IMG/VR virus record: IMGVR_UViG_3300025151_000335
Location: 1 to 22,456 of that record
Source: a virus
DNA: 22,456 nt
Direction: 5' to 3' (one strand)
A program made the translations under genes and the position numbers. Under the pieces are notes generated by a model that was given only the letters and a program-made list of their open reading frames with translations, made no database searches and was not told the origin of the DNA. Below are positions 3,671 to 20,887 of this stretch, in pieces. Positions within the stretch are counted from its first letter, which is position 1, and every line of letters starts with the position of its first letter.

Positions 3671-4053
3671 TACTCTCTCCAGTAAACTTCAGTCTTTGTC
3701 CAAGTGTATGTGCCTGCATCAACCTTTGCATGAATGTAGATTTCACCCTGAGTGTATATGTTGGCTTCTACTTCATATAAAGCCACACCAACGGTGTTAG
3801 TCGTTACACCAGTCGCAAGTGTAGCTTCTGTGTCAGGAATAAGGATGTCATCACCAGCCGCATCACGGCTTACTTGAATGCTTACCTTTGTCGTTGAAGA
3901 CAAAGTACCACGCACACGAATAAGGCTCAGTGTAATGTTGCTGGGCAACTCCACACTCATGTACTTTGCAGCTGCATAAGATGTAGAAGTGACCGATACT
4001 GAGCTATCTGGTTCGACTATCTTTTGTTTGTTTAATTGACCTGTTTGTGCCAT
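3670..4053 (-). CDS. Small beta-rich putative virion protein
   Basis: A 127-aa protein of unknown family with Ser/Thr/Val-rich strands such as SVSVTSTSYAAAKYMSVEL, KVSIQVSRD and EIYIHAKVDAGTYTW. It has no signal peptide, membrane segment or catalytic motif. The look is of a compact beta sandwich, as in small head or tail accessory proteins. It follows the giant ejection protein after a 24-nt gap. AAGGGGG lies before the ATG with a wide spacing. Its last five codons (YWRE and stop) form the ribosome-binding region of the next gene, so the two are probably translationally coupled. Confidence 0.6.
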   Translation of the reverse strand: MAQTGQLNKQKIVEPDSSVSVTSTSYAAAKYMSVELPSNITLSLIRVRGTLSSTTKVSIQVSRDAAGDDILIPDTEATLATGVTTNTVGVALYEVEANIYTQGEIYIHAKVDAGTYTWTKTEVYWRE

Positions 4054-4077: not shown

Positions 4078-7000
4078 TTATTTTGGTGACAGTATAGCCT
4101 CTTTCTGTTTCTGCCTTTTTAATTCTGCTCTAATAAACATTGCCTCTGGCGTATCATCTCGTGTCATTGACATCAATCCCAACTCATAAGATAATGCTGC
4201 ACTCATCTGTAACTGCATTGGATTTGCCATGCCTGTCTGCCGATACAAATCTTGTATCGCAGAATAATACCCACGGTCATACTGCATTTTATCAATACCA
4301 AGGTTCATTATGTCAACATCAGATGCGTATTGCAACTTTAAAGTATCCATAAATCGCCTTTGCAAGCCTGTAACGAACAATAAACTGTCAAGTGAATAAA
4401 ACACTTTTTCAGCTATATCATCTCCAAATTTATAGGCTTGTCCTTTATAAGTTGGATCACCTTCTCTTGGTGCAACTTGTTCTACATTAAATATGTATTT
4501 AAACTCTCTACCGTACAAAGGTGGTTGCTTTTCCATTAAAGCCACATAATGAGGCGGTACAAATCGTGTGCCTTGATACGGGTTTAATTTACCCTTGCCT
4601 TGATATTGTCCTGCCAAACCAAATAATATATTTGTAAGAGGCATTAAAGGTTGTCGATCTATTAATGCTTGTGCAAACTGTGAAGTCAATTCACCTGATG
4701 AAATATCAGCATCTTCATATGCTATTGATGCACTAATCGCTGCTGCATAAGCCATACCATCAATTAATATGCCCATGCTTTCATATGCTGGATTGTAAAA
4801 CCCTACAGCCATTTCGTTGCGTTCTAAGCCTTTATTGGTCACATATCGGAATATGCGTGCATGTTCTCTGGTGTCACCAACATAATAACTTTCCTGCTGC
4901 TTAGCATATCCTTCTTGTGCACGCAATATACGCAGTACATCACCCTTACCACGCCACAATGCACCCACAACACCTTTAAAACTCATCCATTGAAACGACC
5001 AAAAAGCAACGGTACTACCTGCAATTTTTTCCATTGAACTGTTGCGTGCCTTACCATAGTCTAACAATGCCTCACGGCTTCTGGTTGCTGCTTGCTGTGG
5101 GGTCAGTCCGTCGTACAAGGCCTCCGCAAATACAGCACGGCGCAATCTCATATCAGTGTAATGCGACCACATGGTGTACCGTGTACGCTTCGATGGATCT
5201 AAATACCATCGCACAAACTGCTGTGATTTGGCAGCCGTTTGAAACTCACTCGTCAATGCCAACTCACGCATCAATTCTGACATAGAAGTCTTCTGAAATT
5301 GCGCTGCACTAAAAGTAGTTGCTATGTTTTCGCTGCTAACTAAGTCTGCATATTGACCGTAAGTAATGGTTTGACCATTGCGTGTAACCATCATGACTTC
5401 ATCAGGAGCCCAGTTGCCACGAACAAACTTATGGTCGGCATGCAACCAAGACAAACTGCGCAATGTATTGTTTATACCCAATTCTGTTGACATCAACAAT
5501 GGCGCACTAATCAAGTTTACACCAAGGTATCTGGTATTCGGTGCACCCATACCACCCAATAGACCAGTATTGGATATGCGATTTAAAATATCAAACATGT
5601 TTCCTAACATGTAAGATCTATTTTGTTGGTATATTTCTTTTCTGCCTTTTGCATAGTTCTCTGTATACATTCTGTAGTTTTGAATTATATCGGTCCAGTC
5701 ATCGCCTCGAGCCAATGCTTTCAAGTTTTCAAACTCTTTAAACATTTCTTGACCCATAAACAGTGCAACACCCTCAGAGGGTAATACAGACAAGTATGGA
5801 CGGTACATACCAATAATTTCGGCTGCAAAGTTATCTGTGGTTGCTGGTCCAATGGTCACACCATAGCTGCGCAGCATGTTGTCTATTTCTTTTTCTACAT
5901 ACACCAAGGGTGCAGTACCAGCCACAAGTTGCGACATGTCATCAGTAAACAATCGCAAGTCAGCAAGATTACCTGTATATGCACCATTTAAACCAAAAAT
6001 GCCTGCAATGCCTGCTCGACTATACTTTGGCTGTGCTTTAAAATTAAAACCAGCAGCCTCTAATAGTGCGTGAAGATCATAAGTAAATTGTTGATATGCT
6101 TGACCATAGCTACCTTTGTTGACAATCTTTGTAAGGTTTCTCGACGGTCCTTTGTTTGCAACTTTGGCTTTGACCATACCATCAATCATACTGGTTGATA
6201 TTCTACCCAGATCCCGTGAAGACATCATCAATACTTTTTCAGCACTCTTTCCAATGGTGTCTACTAGTTGTCGAGATGCACGAAACACATCCTCATAAAA
6301 TTCATCGGTTCTTTCTGGATATATTTTACGCAGTTGTTCTTCAAAGTTCATCTTTGCTGCTTGCAAATTAGCAGGTTGGTTTGCAAACTTCTCACCACCT
6401 CTTGCCAGTCGAAAACTTTCTTGTAGTTCAAAGTTATTCAATGCATAGAACAATGGATGCTTTTCTGTTTCAAACATCATTTTGATCGTCGTACTGGTGA
6501 CACGGCGAGGTGATATTGACTTCTGTAATTTTTGGATTGGTGTTAGTACCAAGTCCATGTACATCGATGGGTACAACATCAGTAGCTCATCAATGCCAGC
6601 CTTCATTACCACTTCACCACGCAGGCTTAGCGTCAACAAAGTTATACCCTCAGTCCATGCCAAGTCTGTGTCACCACCTACTTTGCTTGCTCGTAGCTGT
6701 GTTGATTTAAGTGCAGGATTGTCTTCTACAATCTTAGCGGCTGTTTTCTGAAGCAATGCCGTGCTTAAACCATCAGCCTCTGCGGCAGCCTCACGCAGGT
6801 ATCGCACAAACTGTCCAGTCTTCATCTGTCTGGTCTGCGGCACAAACCATATGTTATCAAAGAACCTAGACAATATGACGAACAGTTGCTCTTGAACCAC
6901 AGCGTTGTACAATGTGGTTTCAATGGCTTCAGCCTTAGGCACAACCACATCATCTATGCGGTATCCAACAATGTCTTCTTCTACTAAGTCTTCAACATCA

Positions 7001-10000
7001 AAGCCTTCTAGCCAAGTATTAAACCGCTGTTCACTTTTGATTTCATTGACTGCTCGTTTGTATGCAACCTCTGTTGCTTTTTTCTCTGACATAGACTTGC
7101 GCAAATGTCGATACTCACGCTCATATCTTGAGTTAACCAAGCTAAACTTGACTTTGACCTGCTCATCAAATGCAGACACCAACAATCTATTCAACACCAC
7201 AGTGCCGTCTTTGTCTTGCTTCATAAAATGTTCAATGTCATTTATAATTTGATCGAAAGCCGTACTACGCAAGTTGTTGACACGGTATTGTAAATCTAGG
7301 TAAGGCTTAGGCGTCTTGCTTATTTTGGGGTCTTTGATCTTAACGGATGACAAGTACGCACGGTTGGTCACAACTTCTTGACCGGCTTGAAGCATTTGTT
7401 GTCTTGTCTTTAAAACTATTGAAGGATTAAATACACTGACTATACCTTCAAAAGCACCTCGAGCATCTTGTCGCACCATGTTTGCATATTCAATTGCTTT
7501 GGTCCTTGCTCGAGCCTGTGCCACACTGTTGCTGCGCATTTCAGCAGCCTCAATGTACCCTGTCTGCGTCATCAATATGGGCTGTCTTGATTCAGCCACC
7601 GCAGTATCCCATGCGTGTCCTAAGACTGCCTGCTCATAAATACGGTACTCATCTGCAGTCAACTTTTGCAGCAAGTTGTTGTCTAGCTTAGACACAATCT
7701 TCTGAAGACCCTGTGATGAACGCACTTCATCCAAACCAATGCCAGCTACAAACGCATCAATCATGTCATCGCTGTCTGCAATCAATCGACCTGCTTGGTC
7801 TTTTTGAGTCAGTCTGGTTACAATGTTTGCCACCTTTTCTTGGTTCGCTCGAGACCAGTGCCCAATGTTGATTATTCGGTTGCCCCCAACTAATATCTGA
7901 TTGACAGGAAGCCTTGCAAACAACTCATCTTTAACTTGATCCCGCAGCGTTCTGTACATTGCTTCTTGCAATACCTCTGGATCATCTGCCAGTATTCTAT
8001 AAAAGTCATCTGGTACTGCGTCTGGATTGTTTGTTCTGTAGCTTTCAAGCAGTTTGCCTCTATACTTGCCATGCTTTACACCGGCACGCATTAAATTACT
8101 GCGAAACGCTGAACCATACAATGACGCCTTTGGAATGACGCCACCCTGTCGCAACACACGCACATCGTTGGCTATTTCATCAGATACTGCCAATGCGCCC
8201 GCAAATGGGTTGTCTTTCTGTCTTGATGCTGTGTGCCACTTGTTGTAGCCTTCATCCATAACTGTGCGCACAAATGGGCTTGTGCCTCTATTTATAGACC
8301 TGTTCTCTAATCGATGTAGCTGTAGTTCAGTCAGATTGTCAGCAACTTCTCGAGCTGCTGTGTCTTGCATGCTGCGTATTGATGCCTTCTTAATACTGCT
8401 TTGGTAGCCACCCTGCAATCCTTCATCTACCAACATGTTCAGTTCATTTCTATAAGCACGCTTAGCACCCATAGATTTTAAACTATTTAATCCATCTAGC
8501 AGTGCTTCAGTTTCGCTAAATCGTTCAAGTCGAACCAAGGCTTTTTGTATTTCATCACTTGACTTAGTCAAACCTCTAAGAACTTTAGCTTGTGTTGCTG
8601 AAGATGGACCAGTTGTTTGTAATAAAAAATCTGCTACTTCGTATGCTGGTCTTGTTGCACCTTTAACACCTAACCGCAAAATTCTTGCGGGTGCACGAAC
8701 AAAATAACCGGCTGCATCTATTGGCATAAGCATATCAGTAACAAATGCACCAACACCTGCGGCTGTATCCGCAAGATACAATGGTGCGATTGATGCATAC
8801 TCAAACGGCGACAATGTACCACTGGCAATCTTGTCTTGATAATACTTTATGTCCATATTCAAGTTAGGTGCAGCCTTTTTTACCTCGAATACAGTGACAC
8901 CTTCGGCAACACCTGCTGCCATTGAATTTAAAGTTGTTGACGCATTGGCCCATGCACGGTCTGATTGCACAGGTTGAAACATACTAATTGATGGCAAAAA
9001 TTCATTGTATGCTTGTATAGCACTCAGTTGATTTATCTTGTAGCTAAAATCTGTAGGGTTAACTGGATTGCCTTCTTCATCAATCGTATATGTCAAAGCA
9101 TCTGCCACAACAGCGGTTGCGGCTGATGGTAATACACCAACCATACGCAAAGTATAGCTCATTGGACTTTCAACTAAAATGTCTTGATTTTCATATGCTT
9201 GAACAACAGGATCTAAAGGGCTATCTATTTTTCCAGATCTTAAATCTTTAATACTTTCTATTACATCTACATTAGGTACATCTCCTCCTGCAATAGTCCG
9301 TATTGTTTGTAATGGTGTAAAATATTCTTCTACTTTTCCATCATATGTTGGTAATTTAGTACGGTCAGTTTTTACTTGACCAGTCTGTGGATCTCGTTTG
9401 CCAAGTACTTGTGGTTGCATAGCTAGAAGCATACTTTCATTAAAAGTCATTCCACGCACTCGACCCGTTTCTGGATCACGCATGGTGCCTGCTGCAAAAT
9501 CAACCTGTTCTACAGGATCCCTAATCTGTGCCAATAGTGACTGTTGTCCTGATGGATCTAATACAATACGGTCTTGTGTGCGCTGTACAGCCTGTTCAGC
9601 CTCTGCTCGTGCTTCCTCTTCAGGCTTACCTTGCTTAAGTGCATCCACATACACCTTATCGTATATGCGGGTATTCAACATCAACTCTGCTTCCGGCGTC
9701 ATAAACCGTGCTGACATAAGATCACGGCTTTGCATTGGTAGAGGCGATGCTGTTAAATCAGCCATAATTGCTTGAGTTTCTTGCACTTGTTGATTGAGAA
9801 ATGCTCTTTCAGCCTCTAGCTGTGCTACCCGACCATCGTCTACCATTGGTGGCAACTGTGCCTGCATTATCTGCTCATCAATCAATCTGATTTGGTCTCT
9901 CAATGCAGTCTGTTGATCTTTGATGTTAGAGATCTGCTGACCACGCAACTCACGGGCAAGGCCGCCACGCAACATGCTATCTAAGGATTGAAAAGGCGTC

Positions 10001-10194
10001 AGGTCAACAGCCCGTCCTTGGCCTGCATTGGCAACTGCCAACTGTGCTTCTATGATCGCATTGCGTATGTATGGCTTGTCTTCATCAGGCGTTTCCTGTG
10101 CATTCAATATAGTTTGCAACTGCAATATATTGCCTTGCACTGCATTGATGTCAGACAATACATCTGCATTAAGTTGACCTTGTGGTTGGCTCAT
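4078..10194 (-). CDS. Giant internal virion (DNA ejection) protein, T7 gp16 position
   Basis: A 2038-aa protein, the largest gene here; T7 gp16 has 1318 aa. Residues about 10-150 are Gln/Glu/Leu-rich and predicted coiled coil. Apolar, Ala/Gly-rich segments at about 348-370, 470-498 and 1808-1832 could insert in a membrane. A segment at about 1680-1750 (RLRRAVFAEALYDGLT, AATRSREALLDYGKAR, then an aromatic FWSFQW stretch) resembles a pattern I associate with the C-terminal helical regions of large phage polyvalent or ejection proteins. I see no lytic transglycosylase, peptidase or RNA polymerase motif. As third of a 202-655-2038 aa trio it fits the ejection complex that carries DNA across the cell envelope. 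GAGGCAATTAA precedes the ATG, which abuts the previous stop. Confidence 0.75.
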   Translation of the reverse strand: MSQPQGQLNADVLSDINAVQGNILQLQTILNAQETPDEDKPYIRNAIIEAQLAVANAGQGRAVDLTPFQSLDSMLRGGLARELRGQQISNIKDQQTALRDQIRLIDEQIMQAQLPPMVDDGRVAQLEAERAFLNQQVQETQAIMADLTASPLPMQSRDLMSARFMTPEAELMLNTRIYDKVYVDALKQGKPEEEARAEAEQAVQRTQDRIVLDPSGQQSLLAQIRDPVEQVDFAAGTMRDPETGRVRGMTFNESMLLAMQPQVLGKRDPQTGQVKTDRTKLPTYDGKVEEYFTPLQTIRTIAGGDVPNVDVIESIKDLRSGKIDSPLDPVVQAYENQDILVESPMSYTLRMVGVLPSAATAVVADALTYTIDEEGNPVNPTDFSYKINQLSAIQAYNEFLPSISMFQPVQSDRAWANASTTLNSMAAGVAEGVTVFEVKKAAPNLNMDIKYYQDKIASGTLSPFEYASIAPLYLADTAAGVGAFVTDMLMPIDAAGYFVRAPARILRLGVKGATRPAYEVADFLLQTTGPSSATQAKVLRGLTKSSDEIQKALVRLERFSETEALLDGLNSLKSMGAKRAYRNELNMLVDEGLQGGYQSSIKKASIRSMQDTAAREVADNLTELQLHRLENRSINRGTSPFVRTVMDEGYNKWHTASRQKDNPFAGALAVSDEIANDVRVLRQGGVIPKASLYGSAFRSNLMRAGVKHGKYRGKLLESYRTNNPDAVPDDFYRILADDPEVLQEAMYRTLRDQVKDELFARLPVNQILVGGNRIINIGHWSRANQEKVANIVTRLTQKDQAGRLIADSDDMIDAFVAGIGLDEVRSSQGLQKIVSKLDNNLLQKLTADEYRIYEQAVLGHAWDTAVAESRQPILMTQTGYIEAAEMRSNSVAQARARTKAIEYANMVRQDARGAFEGIVSVFNPSIVLKTRQQMLQAGQEVVTNRAYLSSVKIKDPKISKTPKPYLDLQYRVNNLRSTAFDQIINDIEHFMKQDKDGTVVLNRLLVSAFDEQVKVKFSLVNSRYEREYRHLRKSMSEKKATEVAYKRAVNEIKSEQRFNTWLEGFDVEDLVEEDIVGYRIDDVVVPKAEAIETTLYNAVVQEQLFVILSRFFDNIWFVPQTRQMKTGQFVRYLREAAAEADGLSTALLQKTAAKIVEDNPALKSTQLRASKVGGDTDLAWTEGITLLTLSLRGEVVMKAGIDELLMLYPSMYMDLVLTPIQKLQKSISPRRVTSTTIKMMFETEKHPLFYALNNFELQESFRLARGGEKFANQPANLQAAKMNFEEQLRKIYPERTDEFYEDVFRASRQLVDTIGKSAEKVLMMSSRDLGRISTSMIDGMVKAKVANKGPSRNLTKIVNKGSYGQAYQQFTYDLHALLEAAGFNFKAQPKYSRAGIAGIFGLNGAYTGNLADLRLFTDDMSQLVAGTAPLVYVEKEIDNMLRSYGVTIGPATTDNFAAEIIGMYRPYLSVLPSEGVALFMGQEMFKEFENLKALARGDDWTDIIQNYRMYTENYAKGRKEIYQQNRSYMLGNMFDILNRISNTGLLGGMGAPNTRYLGVNLISAPLLMSTELGINNTLRSLSWLHADHKFVRGNWAPDEVMMVTRNGQTITYGQYADLVSSENIATTFSAAQFQKTSMSELMRELALTSEFQTAAKSQQFVRWYLDPSKRTRYTMWSHYTDMRLRRAVFAEALYDGLTPQQAATRSREALLDYGKARNSSMEKIAGSTVAFWSFQWMSFKGVVGALWRGKGDVLRILRAQEGYAKQQESYYVGDTREHARIFRYVTNKGLERNEMAVGFYNPAYESMGILIDGMAYAAAISASIAYEDADISSGELTSQFAQALIDRQPLMPLTNILFGLAGQYQGKGKLNPYQGTRFVPPHYVALMEKQPPLYGREFKYIFNVEQVAPREGDPTYKGQAYKFGDDIAEKVFYSLDSLLFVTGLQRRFMDTLKLQYASDVDIMNLGIDKMQYDRGYYSAIQDLYRQTGMANPMQLQMSAALSYELGLMSMTRDDTPEAMFIRAELKRQKQKEAILSPK

Positions 10195-18294: not shown

Positions 18295-18306
18295 GTGTGC
18301 TCCTAG

Positions 18307-18344
18307 AAAAATGCCCCACCACGAGGGGCAACAAGTGGTGGGGC
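18307..18344 (-). terminator. Intrinsic terminator between decoration and adaptor genes
   Basis: On the minus strand GCCCCACCAC (18344-18335) pairs perfectly with GTGGTGGGGC (18322-18313), a 10-bp GC-rich stem with a 12-nt loop, followed by ATTTTTC. This is a classic rho-independent terminator. It fills most of the 66-nt gap at 18295-18360. The loop carries GCCCC, which can instead pair with GGGGC of the downstream arm, giving a competing shorter hairpin. No promoter is evident after it, so partial read-through into the tail genes seems likely. Confidence 0.8.
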
Positions 18345-18360
18345 GTAGAACAACTCTAAA

Positions 18361-18834
18361 TTAGAATTGCTTGATAACAAATACAGTTGCGACATTGGTA
18401 GCATCTGCTTCAGCAGCAATCGCAATAATAGGACGCTGTGCAACTGTAGCAGAACCACTTTCATCAATGTCAGCAGCAACTGCGGCACGACCTGCCGTTG
18501 ATCCAACAATTAATCGTGAACCAGCAGCAGTAGAACCATCAACATTTGCACTGACATGAATACCAGCAACCGTAACTTTTACAATATCGCCAGATGCTGC
18601 ATCTTCTAATGCAAACCCAACAGCTACAGTAGCAGTAGCAGTACCAGTATCGGCTTGAACTGCATACAATGCTTTGTCACCATCTTCTGTTTGACTAAGG
18701 TCGACAGCAACCAAATCATTAGCAGTAATTGCTTCAGCAGCAATAAATGATTCAATCTGACGACGAAAAGAACTGGTTACACCTGAGCCATCCTCAACAG
18801 GATTAAGGCTTTGTAGAATAGTATTAGTAGCCAT
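18361..18834 (-). CDS. Small capsid decoration-like protein (DUF2190-like)
   Basis: A 157-aa Ala/Val/Thr/Gly-rich beta protein without enzyme motifs. Segments such as TATVAVGFALEDAASGD, DIVKVTVAGIHVSA and AAGSRLIVGSTAGRAA follow the pattern of DUF2190-type and other capsid cement proteins: a small beta barrel with repeated G-D/V-V turns. The gene directly follows the major capsid gene with a TAATG overlap, the usual place for a head decoration protein. GGAGAGGCAGACTA precedes the ATG. It ends just before a strong terminator, so it should be made at levels close to the capsid protein. Confidence 0.6.
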   Translation of the reverse strand: MATNTILQSLNPVEDGSGVTSSFRRQIESFIAAEAITANDLVAVDLSQTEDGDKALYAVQADTGTATATVAVGFALEDAASGDIVKVTVAGIHVSANVDGSTAAGSRLIVGSTAGRAAVAADIDESGSATVAQRPIIAIAAEADATNVATVFVIKQF

Positions 18835-19925: not shown

Positions 19926-20038
19926 CGCTCTCTCCAGTAAAGATTAAATTAAGGTTTCAGTTCAGCGTGTCCCTTTCGGGGGCTGTGAATACGGCGTGTC
20001 CCATACGGGGGCCTCATCAAAGATTGTATACATCAAAA
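19926..20038 (-). promoter_or_regulatory. 113-nt leader of the capsid gene
   Basis: This is the longest non-coding stretch in the minus-strand operon. Read towards the capsid gene it holds a candidate promoter box at its start, two tandem short hairpins, an A/T-rich stretch (TTAATTTAATC) and TTTACTGGAGAGAG before the ATG. The layout suggests a structured messenger leader controlling capsid synthesis or RNA stability. No T-run follows either hairpin, so they do not look like terminators. Confidence 0.55.
19965..20012 (-). repeat. Two tandem hairpin repeats upstream of the capsid gene
   Basis: GCGTGTCCC-TTTC-GGGGGC (19965-19983, plus strand) and GCGTGTCCC-ATAC-GGGGGC (19994-20012) match at 17 of 19 positions, offset by 29 nt. 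Both differences lie in the four bases between CCC and GGG. In the minus-strand RNA these become CCC-GAAA-GGG, with a GNRA-type tetraloop, and CCC-GUAU-GGG. Flanking CC and ACACGC bases are also kept in both copies. Confidence 0.8.
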
Positions 20039-20053
20039 TTACTTTTGTTGCAA
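20025..20053 (-). promoter_or_regulatory. Candidate sigma70-like promoter for the capsid gene
   Basis: On the minus strand TTGCAA (20053-20048) and TATACA (20030-20025) are 17 nt apart. Each matches 4 of 6 consensus bases; the overlapping TACAAT would match 5 of 6 at 19-nt spacing. Transcription would begin near 20018 and include both hairpins. The site overlaps the last codons of the scaffold-like gene. Such matches are frequent by chance, and the phage may use its own polymerase. Confidence 0.3.
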
Positions 20054-20887
20054 GATGTGATTGTAAATGTCCCAAGCATTGAGTGTTTCGTCTTTGGGCA
20101 CTGTGACCCCAGACTTACGACCTGAGCCCACAGCAAGTCCAGCCGCTCTGGCTGCCTTCTTGGTGCGCTTAATGCGTTGGTCTTGTTGTGCTTGTTGTGC
20201 CTTGGCCCGTCGTCCCTGCACAATCCAATAAGCCGCCTCAAGGTCAAGGTGCTCATTATCGGTCAAGGTTTGATGGACTTCTTTACGAAATGCTTGATCG
20301 GTTTTGAGTTCCGGATGTTGAACCATAAAGGCTTCTAACTTACTCTGCGCTTGAAACTGCATTTGTTCCTGACGCATAGGTTCTAAGATGCTGCTCAATC
20401 TTTCAGCAACCACCTTATTAACATACGCATTGAACGACTGCGGGTCAAACGGGTCAAACTGTACATCGTCACCGTGCGCCAGTTCTGTAATCGCTTTGTA
20501 AGCGTCGCTGTCGGTAAGTGCCTTTTGTTGTCGTGCCAGTTCCTTTCGCTGTTGTGCGAGGTCTTGTGTCTTACGAGTATAGTCTGCCCTGAGACTGGCC
20601 ATTGCTCGTTGTACATCTTCTGGTGCTCCTTCTAGTACACTTTGCCAACTTTCACCTTCACGAAGCGTTTCTTCTTTGGCTTCCTCAGGTTCAACATCTG
20701 TATTAGATTGACGCTTTTGATGTGCCTCGAGCAGGCTTTCAATGCGTTGCTCGTACTCATCAAGTTTAGGTGTAGCACCCGAAGCAGGTTCCTCTATGGC
20801 TGTATCTGCCGGTGTGGGTTCTGTGCTCTCCTGCTCCGGAGCTACGGGTTCTGGTGCTGCTTCAACAGTGGTTGGGGTTTCTTCCAT
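20039..20887 (-). CDS. Scaffold-like capsid assembly protein
   Basis: A 282-aa protein with the usual scaffold layout: an acidic, Pro/Glu-rich disordered N-terminus (residues 1-40), a long charged coiled coil (about 95-125, YTRKTQDLAQQRKELARQQ, and again about 160-200), and a basic C-terminal region (RIKRTKKAARAAG, about 239-251) that could contact the capsid shell. Scaffolds guide procapsid formation and then leave. It lies between the portal region and the major capsid gene, the standard position. AGGAGAATGTA precedes the ATG, which overlaps the preceding stop (TAATG). There is no protease motif. Confidence 0.8.
   Translation of the reverse strand: MEETPTTVEAAPEPVAPEQESTEPTPADTAIEEPASGATPKLDEYEQRIESLLEAHQKRQSNTDVEPEEAKEETLREGESWQSVLEGAPEDVQRAMASLRADYTRKTQDLAQQRKELARQQKALTDSDAYKAITELAHGDDVQFDPFDPQSFNAYVNKVVAERLSSILEPMRQEQMQFQAQSKLEAFMVQHPELKTDQAFRKEVHQTLTDNEHLDLEAAYWIVQGRRAKAQQAQQDQRIKRTKKAARAAGLAVGSGRKSGVTVPKDETLNAWDIYNHILQQK

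Follow-up and report, generated by a model that had tools for sequence, protein, structure and literature searches.

Tandem bulged hairpins in the leader of a phage major capsid gene: a structured RNA element and likely docking array for a specific reader

The N-boxB system of lambdoid phages relies on short hairpins, and the specificity of its reader varies between related phages. Very abundant mRNAs can carry hairpins or leaders at the 5' terminus, as in the ompA-type stabiliser and the leader of T7 gene 10, and the guanidine-II (mini-ykkC) RNA consists of a tandem pair of small hairpins and has a conserved motif. The pan motif consists of small tandem hairpins with conserved bulged bases and has been read as a dimeric protein-binding motif (Weinberg 2010, PMC2864571). 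The put element of HK022, about 70 nt long, has two stem-loops close to the promoter (PMC9378689). The element analyzed here had no match above the gathering threshold among the 4227 models of Rfam 15, either in the analyzed stretch or in 12 loci; a permissive Rfam search returned chance-level matches only. No description of it was found in a literature search of incomplete coverage.

The stretch of viral DNA under study (hereafter the window) is 22,456 nt long and carries two small hairpins in the leader of a gene for a major capsid protein (MCP; Table 1). The two 19-nt repeats noticed upstream of the capsid gene in the first-pass annotation are real. They occupy positions 19965-19983 and 19994-20012 (start-to-start distance, 29 bases) and are the only copies in the window at up to three mismatches, whereas two copies were obtained in 0 of 100 shuffles. 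They were said to differ at all four loop bases; in fact mismatches occur at 2 of the 19 positions, both within the four-base loop. The mRNA strand of the repeats is the minus strand, and on it the loops read GAAA and GUAU, so that one loop is of the GNRA type, as annotated, and the other is not. Stem and flanks had been described as constant. This is correct for the inner 3-bp helix (CCC/GGG) but not for the outer flank, which varies on both sides jointly because the two copies, folded as mRNA, have different outer helices (GGC/GCC in one and CAGC/GCUG in the other), a pairing that had been overlooked. The outer and inner helices are split by an internal loop, C/ACAC. The folding energy of the 113-nt leader is unremarkable (z = +0.66); the structural evidence is therefore comparative, not energetic. 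Neither hairpin has the U run on its 3' side that would mark an intrinsic terminator or attenuator, and a terminator scan lists none in the leader. The rest of the window was also searched for further copies, as had been proposed: a covariance model built without the window matched exactly the two repeats (hairpin 1, 12.2 bits, E = 0.23; hairpin 2, 18.0 bits, E = 0.003) and nothing else.

Table 1. Features at the MCP locus (positions in the window; hairpin sequences are those of the mRNA, written 5' to 3')
Feature	Position	Strand	Basis or remark
MCP gene, 363 aa	18834..19925	-	PHROG 9953 major head protein, E 8.9e-24
Ribosome-binding site region, GGAGAGAGCG	19926..19935	-	sequence; hairpins do not overlap it
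157-aa gene, second in the MCP transcription unit	18361..18834	-	no PHROG match
Upstream gene, 282 aa, scaffold-like by position	20039..20887	-	no PHROG or Pfam match
Predicted sigma70-like -35, TTGCAA, in the last codons of the upstream gene	20048..20053	-	17-nt spacing to -10; position conserved in the window family
Predicted -10, TATACA	20025..20030	-	ends 11 nt 5' of hairpin 1 (11-15 nt in relatives)
Hairpin 1 (5' copy in the mRNA), GGC-C-CCC-GUAU-GGG-ACAC-GCC	19993..20013	-	contains the second repeat
Hairpin 1 internal loop, conserved 3' side, ACAC (R plus the bulge YAM)	19996..19999	-	sequence; C/ACAC and C/ACAA recur in leaders
Hairpin 2, CAGC-C-CCC-GAAA-GGG-ACAC-GCUG	19963..19985	-	contains the first repeat
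Hairpin 2 internal loop, conserved 3' side, ACAC	19967..19970	-	sequence; same recurrence in leaders
Strong intrinsic terminator, 32-nt stem-loop, -20.3 kcal/mol, then ATTTTTCTA	18304..18344	-	closes the MCP unit

All genes around the repeats are on the minus strand. Members of the window family share a promoter-like pair, TTGnnn-N17-TAnnnT/A, that ends 11-15 nt before hairpin 1. The predicted -35 overlaps Leu-Gln codons, and its conservation alone is ambiguous; the -10 lies after the stop codon. Transcription is predicted to start near 20018, with hairpin 1 beginning about 5 nt later. The terminator is found 489-514 nt past the MCP stop codon in all window-family members tested. In phages whose MCP belongs to Pfam family PF19821 (see below), promoter scores were moderately raised (p = 0.0018), with clear promoters in some and weak ones in many soil phages, and a strong terminator follows the MCP gene in 25 of 112 cases, compared with 1 of 116 upstream controls. 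Predicted promoter and terminator together would make the hairpins the first structure of a separate MCP transcript; by this prediction from sequence, the MCP has its own transcription unit with the hairpins at its 5' end. Elsewhere in the window, the minus strand encodes a 2038-aa protein of the structural region with no PHROG or Pfam match (4078-10194) and a RusA-like resolvase (1693-2160). The only large plus-strand gene (2-631) encodes a DnaQ-like exonuclease (Pfam RNase_T).

Twelve contigs related to the window, with MCP identities of 60-99%, are organized in the same way ahead of the capsid gene. Their stems change with pairing kept (CAGC/GCUG, GGC/GCC, UCUC/GAGA), and the 3' strand of the internal loop is ACAC or AUAC throughout. 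The first hairpin is degenerate in L004, and one clear hairpin each is present in L013 and L014. Read from the outside inward, the general motif has an outer helix of 3-6 bp followed by a C.A mismatch or a C-G pair, a 3'-side bulge of three bases (Y-A-M) that adjoins the C.A or C-G, and an inner helix of 2-6 bp beginning with CC/GG. The loop that closes the hairpin is variable, measures 3-7 nt, and is of the GNRA type in 74 of 157 cases. Leaders contain 1-4 hairpins at loose spacing (median gap, 12.5 nt). The median distance from the end of the hairpins to the start codon is 47 nt (86 leaders), and about 24 nt separate them from the ribosome-binding site in the window. When leaders were folded locally without reference to the motif, the dominant internal loops were C/ACAA (36), C/ACAC (27), and a CAA bulge beside C-G (45), all three of which are absent from the 15 commonest loops of control segments.

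The seed alignment was a gapless 23-nt set (A3). In 31 hairpins that exclude the window, double changes were found at all five outer-helix pairs (5/5), and outer-helix covariation was 0.605 compared with 0.187 in shuffled alignments (reached in 0 of 500); the signal collapsed in slid registers. Because these 31 hairpins had been picked with a pairing filter, an independent test was made on hairpins anchored by the core sequence, ignoring the outer arms. Outer pairs 1-5 again lay above all 500 shuffles, whereas pair 6 did not. Inner pairs 1 and 2 do not vary (CC/GG) and thus carry no information on covariation; longer inner helices vary with pairing retained. Wobbles on the mRNA strand were G.T in 27 cases and A.C in 5 (40 and 20 expected), a bias that favors the transcript as the acting strand. 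We regard it as nearly certain that the element is a structured RNA, as the first-pass annotation had supposed: in related leaders the loops and the stem sequences vary but pairing is retained, the reverse of what it had named as counter-evidence (loops kept, pairing lost). Its reasoning must be amended in that the loop is dispensable and the bulge between the helices, which it had not noticed, is the conserved signal. Helix covariation is combined with a fixed position in the leader of one type of gene, as is expected of a structured cis-regulatory RNA.

The distribution of the element was assessed by protein-free pattern scans of viral contigs, followed by a pairing filter. Nearly all tandem hairpins detected in this way lie ahead of capsid genes, mostly of family PF19821. 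No similarity between the window MCP and PF19821 MCPs was detectable by BLASTP or by profile comparison (probability 0.3%). Motif-blind samples were obtained by gathering PF19821 loci by protein alone. In the first sample, at least one hairpin was present in 74 of 76 leaders and at least two in 56 of 76, compared with 6 of 274 control segments taken from the same contigs. The second sample, which overlaps the first in part and extends to 54% MCP identity, gave 70 of 74 leaders. Capsid leaders account for 94 of 94 covariance-model matches in 488 kb of loci. Matches also cluster in capsid leaders in about 40 whole phage records (most of them about 45 kb), with two weak exceptions. A tandem match in L096 proved false, being located within coding sequence for a DTP-rich peptide. 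A weak one-pattern scan of genome contigs for prophage copies gave no PF19821 relative.

Assignments in named phages are weaker than those in the metagenomic set, and model R2 found the element in 0 of 5 named-phage records at E 0.3. Yersinia phage YeP4 carries two AUAC hairpins and possibly one more, a form with UAG was recognized by eye in Vibrio phages VP2 and phiVC8, and bulge forms occur in HTVC028P and MW202510. The element is absent from TPWB-05, Piluca, and vB_EcoM_APEC, where the MCP gene directly follows the previous gene; it is therefore not essential to every such phage. The pelagiphages HTVC010P, Lederberg, and Skadi (L174, L175, L182) have a single hairpin, identified by eye, about 50-80 nt before the MCP start. 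Its internal loop, with UGC as the 5' strand and AGAACN as the 3' strand, differs from the window type, and its outer arms are AGRRA/UUUCU or AGAAU/AUUCU. A third kind of MCP (PHROG 1357) is represented by L021, in which two exact copies of GCCCCCGAAAGGGACACGC are placed around the start of the gene preceding the MCP, with the outer helix in one copy only. At this place (minus strand, near 3860-3925) the AT-rich phage carries two GC-rich 19-mers that are identical to the core of window hairpin 2 and also read in frame as the peptide APERDT.

Although the search placed no constraint on the last base of the bulge, this position is always A (73) or C (46). Hairpins of the same leader agree in this letter (0.94, versus 0.52 in shuffled sets; 0 of 500), and mixed A/C leaders are rare (4 of 49). 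Agreement of the loops within leaders is at chance (0.11 versus 0.12), as is that of stem positions, which indicates that no hairpin of a leader is a recent duplicate of another. Gene conversion keeping the duplicates alike was rejected, since loops and stems are no more alike within leaders than between them. On a tree of the MCPs of these phages, the letter requires at least 10 switches, a repetition that common descent alone does not explain. In three close pairs, with MCP genes 82-93% identical, the letter differs by A to C point changes in every hairpin, and the leaders can be aligned at 75-83% identity; in L219/L229 and L254/L259 the copies of hairpin 2 differ at the bulge letter alone. 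Wholesale exchange of leaders was rejected as the cause of the switches, because in these three pairs the changes sit in place in alignable leaders. Coordinated change at several separate sites points to one trans-acting reader, and the sequences thereby imply that a reader of the bulge letter co-evolves with the hairpins. We propose tentatively, at somewhat less than even odds, that the letter forms a readable RNA code, in which each phage would use one letter and a dedicated phage or host reader, and lineages would switch letter and reader specificity in concert. Such switching would perhaps keep capsid control private from co-infecting phages or evade a host factor.

In about 20 fetched genomes, no shared protein family has residues clearly tracking A or C, and alignment columns of the MCP, scaffold, and neighboring proteins do not clearly beat shuffles when compared with the letter; scaffold columns 148-149 and the small gene of family G003_016 are weak leads. 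The MCP was rejected as reader; the two MCP families have no detectable similarity, and none of its columns tracks the letter beyond shuffles. We likewise rejected a small reader gene common to all these phages in the interval from scaffold to leader, as the ORFs found there are of several unrelated kinds. Among L183-L262, a small ORF, often rich in Lys/Arg, is located between scaffold and leader, 170-320 nt before the MCP start. These ORFs include a Cys/His knuckle-like kind, a kind with SQAQAGF...KLAKHVRKK, and others.

Structure, conservation, gene specificity, predicted promoter and terminator context, and concerted letter switches were computed here. The reading that we prefer (probability roughly 0.55) is that of a cis RNA array at the 5' end of the MCP mRNA, docked by a letter-specific reader that makes MCP expression high or timed. 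Transcription would start about 5 nt ahead of hairpin 1 and run through one to four bulged hairpins (two in the window), leaving about 24 nt between the last hairpin and the ribosome-binding site. Every hairpin would present one recognition surface, the Y-A-M bulge by C.A or C-G, held between the outer helix and the CC/GG inner helix. The array would be docked by a phage-encoded or host-encoded RNA reader with sequence specificity, able to discriminate between A and C at the final base of the bulge. This reader would then raise or time MCP expression, and the likeliest route is protection of the 5' end against decay or assistance to translation. A docking array for a specific reader is likely. 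From the concerted letter we infer that a trans-acting reader exists, and it is probably a protein. A positive effect on MCP expression is a reasoned guess from the position of the array.

The same hairpins could act passively, blocking 5'-end-dependent decay (RppH, RNase E) with no specific partner, in the manner of the ompA 5' hairpin. Hairpin 1 is indeed predicted to begin about 5 nt into the transcript, the MCP has a separate (predicted) transcription unit, and abundant late mRNAs gain from stability. A stabiliser of this kind needs stable stems only, whereas here the bulge is conserved across wholly changed stems and its last letter is phage-specific; we consider it quite unlikely. The first-pass annotation had left the choice between a stabiliser and a protein site, and since the letter in the bulge is phage-specific, the protein site is the better fit and the passive stabiliser the poorer one. 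In autogenous control, the MCP or the scaffold protein would bind the hairpins and repress its own translation. The coat proteins of RNA phages are a precedent for such translational control, and the element is almost exclusive to capsid-gene leaders. The chance of autogenous control appears similarly small, considering that the element is common to two MCP families without detectable similarity, that no MCP column tracks A/C beyond shuffles, and that the hairpins end well ahead of the ribosome-binding site and the start codon, at the distances given above. Sequestration of the ribosome site was rejected, complementarity between leader and ribosome site being no better than in shuffled or unrelated leaders. 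Leaders of soil phages end in GGCGGGAUAGCC, which is able to pair with the 5' half of hairpin 2. This sequence recurs in the last 12 nt before the MCP start (L219, L229, L254, and other soil phages), a recurrence that hairpin pairing does not explain.

Tandem stem-loops near a predicted promoter in phages also bring to mind a nascent-RNA element of the HK022 put kind, acting on RNA polymerase to suppress pausing or termination. However, the MCP unit closes with a strong terminator rather than running on, the element is confined to one gene, the number of hairpins varies from 1 to 4 at loose spacing, and no put-like sequence or Rfam match was found; we therefore judge a put-like function improbable. 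The reader might also not be a phage protein at all but a host factor or an RNA acting in trans, and the A and C types would then mark different hosts. No phage family tracks the letter, and a three-base bulge could pair in trans. On the other hand, the letter switches between phages with 93% identical MCP genes, so that hosts would need to differ often at that depth, and this explanation is rather unlikely. Two near-identical 19-mers upstream of a late gene could finally be a double-stranded DNA site or a twice-repeated promoter for a phage RNA polymerase, a possibility already raised in the first pass. The compensatory stem changes and the excess of G.T over A.C wobbles speak against a DNA site, and no T7-like RNA polymerase domain was detected, in a search whose controls were also silent. 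We assign next to no probability to this explanation.

If a docking array with a letter-specific reader is the right reading, the hairpins represent an undescribed family of cis-acting RNAs at the capsid gene of many tailed phages, which would extend from the window's family to soil phages and, as variants, to some phages of Yersinia, Vibrio, and Pelagibacter. It would point to a further layer of control on the amount of shell protein. The concerted A/C letter provides a handle on the reader, as both hairpin types could be used as paired baits. A private, switchable pair of RNA and reader would be practically useful.

Compared with known systems, the element shares features with several and differs from each. 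Guanidine-II has its conserved bases in the loops (ACGR), whereas here the loops vary and there is no Rfam match. A stabiliser of the ompA type or the T7 gene 10 leader requires no conserved internal-loop letters, unlike the hairpins described here. HK022 put, which was compared by description only, is likewise a phage cis element with tandem stem-loops near a promoter; however, put is compact, belongs to early operons, and acts on RNA polymerase, whereas here the hairpins are separate and loosely spaced, the MCP unit has a terminator, and the bulge motif is unlike that of described put. In N-boxB, loop and stem determine the specificity of one hairpin, which is accompanied by boxA; in the element described here the loop is unconstrained, and an internal bulge repeated in each hairpin carries the letter. 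The pan motif resembles the element in that conserved bulged bases interrupt small hairpins, which mostly occur as tandem copies within a 5' leader. It has two bulged A residues and precedes bacterial pantothenate genes, whereas the hairpins described here have a single 3-nt YAM bulge on the 3' side by C.A or C-G, occur in one to four copies, and precede phage capsid genes.
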